From: an uncultured Armatimonadota bacterium
Lineage (GTDB): Bacteria > Armatimonadota > Fimbriimonadia > Fimbriimonadales > Fimbriimonadaceae
DNA: 64,000 nucleotides
Direction: 5' to 3'
Assembly (NCBI GenBank): GCA_903927025.1
Contig: CAIYLG010000002.1
Coordinates: 124,001-188,000, forward strand
The position numbers and the translations under genes are program-made. Below the pieces are notes generated by a model. It did not search any database and was not told the DNA's origin. It was given only the letters and a program-made list of their open reading frames with translations. This document shows positions 23,097 through 23,751 of this stretch, piece by piece. Positions within the stretch are counted from its first letter, which is position 1. Each line of letters starts with the position of its first letter.

Positions 23097-23751
23097 TTTG
23101 TTGTTTCCTTTTCGATTGCTTTATTCTCTTGGGCCCTGTTGTTTGCCCGACGAGAATATGATGCGGGAGGGCATCAGCACTTGGAAATCGCTTCTTTTAG
23201 CCCCGCCAAAGCGGGCGTTCACCGTGTGCAGCGCGACAGGGCCTCGAAGAATTACCAGCACATGGAGCGCTGGGTTCACCCGGCGCGCCGAGCGAAGCTT
23301 CAGCTCGCGAGAAAAGCTAAGCGGATTCCGAGGCTTCCGGAGCGTGCGCTGAAGCATCACGAAGCGAAGCTTCAGCTCGCGAGAAAAGCTTTGCGGATTC
23401 CGAGGCTCCCGGAGCGTGCGCTGTAGCATCACTCAGCGAAGCTTCAGCTCGCGAGAAAGGCTTTGCGGATTCCGAGGCTTCCGGAGCGTGCGCTGAAGCA
23501 TCACGCGGCGCGCCGGGTGAACCCAGCGCTCCCTTCCTCTCTCCGGGGCGAAAGGAAGGGGACCGGAGCGCGGCTATTCTTGCGTGCGGAAGAGCGCGCC
23601 CCATGCGTGCTCCTGTGTCAAAATCGTTGGACGGTGGGTGGGTTCGAGTCGTAGAACCTCCTGACTCGGCAACCTTGGGCTTCGGATCGATGTCCCAGTT
23701 CTGTAGCCAAATCCACTTTCAAATCGAAGCAGCCAATCTAAGGAGAACGTC
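23097..23751. repeat. Intergenic region with a composite repeat element upstream of katG
   Basis: The core (23264-23532) is a tandem array inside inverted repeats, listed separately. The flanks continue the repetitive look: CCCCGCCAAAGCGGG at about 23203-23217 can pair with itself, and 23533-23600 has CTTCCTCTCTCCGGGG facing CCGGAGCG. ORFs across it repeat the same 24-residue string and are artefacts of the 72-bp period. The katG promoter should lie between 23600 and 23740, but no clear -35/-10 was seen. Confidence 0.6.
23264..23532. repeat. Three 72-bp tandem repeats framed by perfect 27-bp inverted repeats
   Basis: Perfect inverted repeats occupy 23264-23290 and 23506-23532 (inner part GCGCTGGGTTCACC, then CGGCGCGCC). 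Between them three units start at 23291, 23363 and 23435, each opening AGCGAAGCTTCAGCTCGCG and closing CGTGCGCTGAAGCATCAC with few differences. Each unit contains small palindromes (GAAGCTTC, CTCGCGAG, AGCGTGCGCT). No gene or transposase is present. It may be a MITE-like element, a site for a nucleoid or regulatory protein, or a structured RNA. Confidence 0.9.

Follow-up and report, generated by a model that had tools for sequence, protein, structure and literature searches.

The window analyzed here, a stretch of 64,000 nucleotides, contains a compact 269-bp block (23264..23532, without assigned strand) in which tandem units are enclosed by inverted arms, and the question it raises is what kind of element this is and how its interior came to be multiplied. 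REPs and REPINs are widespread small bacterial repeats, the growth and spread of which are still debated. According to our analysis, the block is probably a REPIN-type non-autonomous mobile element, mobilized by a RAYT, in which a spacer of roughly 71 bp was amplified to three tandem 72-bp units; we assign this reading a probability of about 78%. The genome that carries the window (5.25 Mb in 66 contigs, with the window on contig C2) was searched for related copies, and all genome-wide counts given below are based on these searches plus extracted stretches.

Anatomy of the element

The element consists of a REP, three tandem spacer units and an inverted REP. The left 27-bp arm (23264..23290) lies on the plus strand, its first 22 nt being the REP, with a GGAG foot, and the right 27-bp arm (23506..23532) is the inverted REP on the minus strand. 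The arms form a perfect inverted pair, GGAGCGCTGGGTTCACCCGGCGCGCCG, and their pairing continues imperfectly into the outer units, to 46 nt in all, with 89% complementarity. Spacer units 1 (23291..23362) and 2 (23363..23434) are both 72 bp long, whereas unit 3 (23435..23505) comprises 71 of the 72 bp before the right arm begins; none of the three has an assigned strand. Tandem Repeats Finder describes the array at 23291-23505 as 3.0 copies of a 72-bp period with 93% matches and no indels. Elsewhere in the window, a weak 24-bp tandem repeat is found at 57272-57317 (1.9 copies, 77% matches).

The three unit starts (23291, 23363 and 23435) and the perfect 27-bp inverted pair around the array are exactly those given in a preliminary description of the locus, which also judged correctly that the block is neither an insertion sequence nor a CRISPR array, but did not recognize it as being of the REP/REPIN type and associated with a RAYT. 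The repetitive spurious open reading frames that were foreseen there are represented by one, at 23121-23432 on the minus strand. The block had further been placed upstream of katG and next to a decayed gene. The peroxidase ORF at 23752-25947 (PF00141) is indeed katG, and the decayed gene is real, its two parts, 22923-23063 and 23064-23257, matching the 3' end and the 5' end, respectively, of a multi-copy gene.

Each arm starts with GGA(G/A), followed by a hairpin with a TTCA loop, CGCTGGG-TTCA-CCCGGCG. A foot tetranucleotide and a small hairpin, arranged as an inverted pair, make up the REP/REPIN architecture (PMC3116915, PMC2817692), and the two inverted REPs of the block with their spacer are likewise able to make one long hairpin. 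The foot is conserved but not canonical, being GGA(G/A) and not GT(A/G)G (PMC6006769, PMC8266576); atypical feet are also known in some subclasses (PMC6006769). Because of this foot the REP is atypical, and we therefore call the element REPIN-type and not a canonical REPIN. Among 32 distinct arm sequences, the loop-adjacent pair is G-C in 17, C-G in nine and A-T in one, and is unpaired in five; these pair types (27/32 paired, in sequences related to one another) support the predicted hairpin, short of proof. Single-strand folding yielded z-scores of -7.6 for the window element, and -4.0 and -8.1 for two simple members of its family.

A dispersed family of simple and arrayed elements

The block is not unique in its genome, the case in which the preliminary description would have abandoned a repeat-family explanation, but has relatives dispersed through it, some of them simple and others arrayed. 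A BLAST search of its own genome with the whole block yields 97 matches at E<=1. For the 21-nt core of the arm, GGAGCGCTGGGTTCACCCGGC, there are 50 genomic matches at up to 3 mismatches compared with 0 for the reversed control, thus its repetition is not due to chance. The simple members, composed of two arms and one spacer, are 124 bp (C19:93461 and C41:22464), 123 bp (C2:87480) or 121 bp (C66:26279 and C66:26455) in length. Five arrays are complete, with three units on C2 (the window), C58 and C50, and four units on C10 and C4. Seven further arrays (on C21, C24, C46, C51, C54, C55 and C65) run into a contig end after three to five complete units. No complete two-unit member was seen among the family members examined.

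Target-site duplications longer than 2 nt are absent from the 16 complete elements, except for one 9-nt flank match, which is the linker of a tandem cluster on C27. This cluster (C27:7857-8450) represents a second mode of amplification, in which three whole REPIN-like elements with the same REP core are arranged in tandem; its period of 201 comprises both REPs plus the linker and not the spacer alone.

In the window, the right arm is abutted by an imperfect copy (23533..23571, without assigned strand) of the palindrome GTCCCCTTCCTTTCGCC..GGCGAAAGGAAGGGGAC, a separate dispersed repeat that abuts eight of 12 array elements. About 40 matches to it are found elsewhere in the genome, and it overlaps the start of some REPs; it may represent a further repeat family or a target of insertion.

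Candidate transposase

A RAYT, which is an HUH/Y1 tyrosine transposase, presumably recognizes such REPs in single-stranded form and cuts them. Four Y1-transposase loci are present in the genome, one of which (C66:26635-27210) encodes a REP-associated tyrosine transposase (NCBIfam NF047646, 92.7 bits versus a cut-off of 80). It is the only such gene in the genome with intact catalytic motifs, and among solved structures its product best matches TnpA-REP of E. coli (4ER8), in an alignment that includes the HUH and Tyr motifs. The gene is bracketed by two REPINs upstream and one downstream, the REP of which is GGAACGCTGGCTTCAGCCGGC. Compared with the window REP, the hairpin of this REP differs only at the loop-adjacent pair, which is still paired (G-C versus C-G); the other difference, G/A at the fourth position, is variable within the window's family too. 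In several species of the same genus, RAYT genes likewise have inverted REPs on both sides, each with its own REP sequence. We infer that the C66 RAYT moves the element family of the window. Several points speak against a RAYT-mobilized REPIN: the foot is not canonical, the REP beside the RAYT gene is not identical to that of the window, the pair types come from arm sequences that are related to one another, and neither excision products nor circles nor empty sites were observed.

A second RAYT-like gene (C58:4394-4954) has its own flanking REPs (GGAGTGCGGGATTTATCACGC). This RAYT/REPtron is probably dead, since a stop interrupts the match and Cys replaces the catalytic Tyr.

A tandem interior between perfect terminal inverted repeats of 27 bp would also suit a classical MITE, a terminal-inverted-repeat element that depends on a DDE transposase for its movement and has an amplified interior, as BOX elements appear to be; BOX likewise has fixed ends and a repeated middle (PMC3049150). 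We consider such an origin unlikely, since the complete elements lack the target-site duplications that BOX makes (PMC3049150), and since the arm is a REP-like hairpin of the same type that brackets a RAYT gene.

Association with a multi-copy secreted-protein gene

The decayed gene beside the array belongs to a multi-copy family encoding a secreted protein of about 197 aa (for example, the copy at L200:2474-3070 on C12), which has no Pfam match above the cut-off and, in its first part, no NCBIfam match. In the window, the leader of this gene (23097..23263, minus strand), common to the C58, C50, C10 and C4 copies, is followed by the decayed gene itself (22981..23096, minus strand), in which the first codons are fused to the last near 23063/23064 and the middle is deleted. 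Its terminator-like hairpin (22929..22956, minus strand) is kept in other copies. The decayed copy is placed between the stop of ORF 21424-22905 and katG. On its far side, a weak REP-like half site found by eye (GGGCACGCTGGCTTCA; 22903..22919, minus strand) overlaps the stop codon of this ORF.

The same leader lies beyond the array on each of the five contigs where that side is assembled (C2, C58, C50, C10 and C4), and the gene start comes after the leader except on C4, where the contig ends in the leader. Wherever this side is assembled, the array is found upstream (5') of the gene at a constant short distance. About a dozen near-identical gene copies break the assembly, and a dozen contig ends fall in the 3' part of the gene, beyond which come the terminator and then unique sequence, often preceded by a GGAGCG...CGCTCC palindrome. 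Together, the arrays and this gene explain why many contigs of the assembly stop where they do. Also on the 3' side of the gene, REPs with the same foot and a different stem (GGAGCG-TCCCGA-TGCA or TTCA-TCGGGA) were observed at C59:1-340 and C7:116200-116400, and hybrids between them and the window's REPIN occur.

Older, diverged copies of the gene are associated with the element to varying degrees. The copy on C12 has a single-unit REPIN-like element some distance away, that on C11 retains, where the REPIN would lie, only a GGAGCGCTGG remnant, and those on C52 and C33 have no REPIN. The simple REPIN members lie elsewhere, without the gene. This series of gene copies suggests that a REPIN joined the gene first, was then amplified, and then spread with it. 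It is doubtful, though conceivable, that the moving unit is a gene cassette of leader, gene and terminator, bounded 5' by the REPIN array and often 3' by the inverted GGAGCG...CGCTCC palindrome, and that the RAYT machinery has brought this cassette to about a dozen sites; if so, REPs would move cargo genes.

The fixed position of the array in all five copies could instead mean that it serves the secreted-protein gene as a regulatory element or structured RNA, such as a transcribed leader, is retained for that function and was dispersed as a by-product of gene duplication. In line with this, the RNA fold of the whole element is strong (z = -9.6). However, most of this strength comes from the inverted arms, the one unit that was folded does not exceed shuffled sequence in stability, and no Rfam family matches (by a covariance-model match above the gathering score); the binding array or structured RNA that the preliminary description had entertained thus finds no specific support. 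Moreover, simple members occur without the gene and the diverged copies on C52 and C33 occur without a REPIN. Homologues of the gene were identified in four genomes of the same genus (G004, G006, G012 and G019; loci L250-L253, L255 and L260), and in the loci read none of these related species has an array upstream of it. A role of this kind is therefore very unlikely. Several of the homologues are found at contig ends and some are close together (G019:C39).

Variation among the units

The arrays contain 43 complete units, every one exactly 72 nt long, of which 39 are distinct; 34 positions are variable. The difference between units is 6.1 within an array and 5.8 between arrays (permutation 0.94), and the first units are closer across loci (3.6). 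Since likeness within arrays is no higher than between them, the arrays appear to have spread preformed or to have exchanged units between loci. Of the 105 pairs that can be formed from common variable sites, 51 show all four combinations, thus either loci exchanged units or mutation recurred at some sites. A separate recent local duplication at each site was considered and rejected on the same comparison. Accordingly, the preliminary idea of a non-autonomous mobile element grown by unit duplication holds in part: the dispersed family, the plausible cognate transposase gene and the lack of target-site duplication are in line with it, whereas recent local duplication at this site is not, the units being no more alike within arrays.

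A period divisible by three, the lack of indels in 43 units and consensus frames without stops could point to a coding repeat, in which each 72-bp unit would specify 24 residues of a repetitive peptide. The arrays carry no coding signal: synonymous changes are as numerous as expected in each of the six frames, and five of these frames acquire stops through substitutions, while the fixed unit length is equally predicted by exchange between whole units; we regard this explanation as extremely improbable. An assembly artefact, which would suit the many contigs that end inside arrays as repeats do in short-read assemblies, can be practically dismissed because five complete arrays, in distinct places and with distinct unit sequences and outer flanks, are not the product of one contig.

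Distribution in other genomes

The whole block has no match in 40 related genomes, none of which is near enough for an empty-site comparison, nor in plasmid and phage collections, and no viral contig carries the REP core. In 19 genomes of the same genus, the REP core has scattered near matches only. In the form with the C-G pair, the core (loci L098-L198) is common in Verrucomicrobia, mainly in Akkermansiaceae, and has a few matches in other phyla, some of which may be due to chance. These cores often occur as inverted pairs, which have unrelated spacers and mostly span 49-136 nt, and two loci (L187 and L151) contain RAYT genes that are 44% and 39% identical to the C66 RAYT. The loop-adjacent pair is C-G in 109 of 113 sites in other phyla, making the pair test uninformative there, as nearly all sites are of one type. 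Arrays bounded by inverted arms are absent from 887 kb of loci from other genomes, which include three repeat copies of the genome's own arrays; as these loci are short pieces, the absence carries little weight.

Proposed history and significance

In the RAYT-mobilized REPIN that we favor, the RAYT would recognize and cut single-stranded REPs and thereby mobilize the element. Slippage, or else unequal exchange, between the palindromic spacer ends is the most likely origin of the array. This amplification would have taken place in an element that was already upstream of the multi-copy secreted-protein gene, and the array would then have spread along with the gene, later exchange between arrays reshuffling the unit variants. 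At the window locus the gene copy has decayed and the array has stayed, presumably without a function for the host.

If this is correct, the multiplied interior separates the part required by the transposase, the two REPs, from a part that can expand freely, and the natural series of one, three, four or more units provides a test of that separation. The tie to the multi-copy secreted-protein gene provides a test of whether RAYTs can move cargo.

Comparison with known systems

The REPINs of Pseudomonas fluorescens SBW25 (PMC3116915) and the BIMEs of E. coli (PMC8266576) share with the window's family inverted REP hairpins around a spacer, dispersal in one genome, a RAYT gene with adjacent REPINs and a simple form near 120 bp. 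The family differs from both in its GGA(G/A) foot and in having the spacer repeated three or more times inside one REP pair; SBW25 clusters repeat whole REPINs with flanks (PMC3116915), while E. coli BIMEs repeat REPs (PMC8266576). The whole-REPIN tandem at C27:7857-8450 resembles the SBW25 clusters (PMC3116915). With the RAYT/REPtron (PMC2817692, PMC6006769), the genome shares inverted REPs on both sides of a RAYT gene and cognate REPs elsewhere, and differs in the non-canonical foot and in that the window REP resembles the one beside the gene closely without being identical to it.

The literature searched, with many subscription papers outside its reach, held no description of an amplified interior within a single REP pair, nothing on Armatimonadota with REPs and nothing on BOX together with RAYT. 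The kind of element is known, and its internal amplification looks like a new form of that kind. The closest analogy, of architecture and not of membership, is with BOX of Streptococcus pneumoniae, which is dispersed and MITE-like, with fixed ends (boxA and boxC) around a variable number of tandem boxB modules (PMC3049150). Unlike BOX, which makes target-site duplications (PMC3049150), the window's family has REP hairpins as ends, a RAYT as the candidate enzyme and no target-site duplication. Its formula is arm-unit(n)-arm, where n is 1, 3, 4 or more, and that of BOX is boxA-boxB(n)-boxC.
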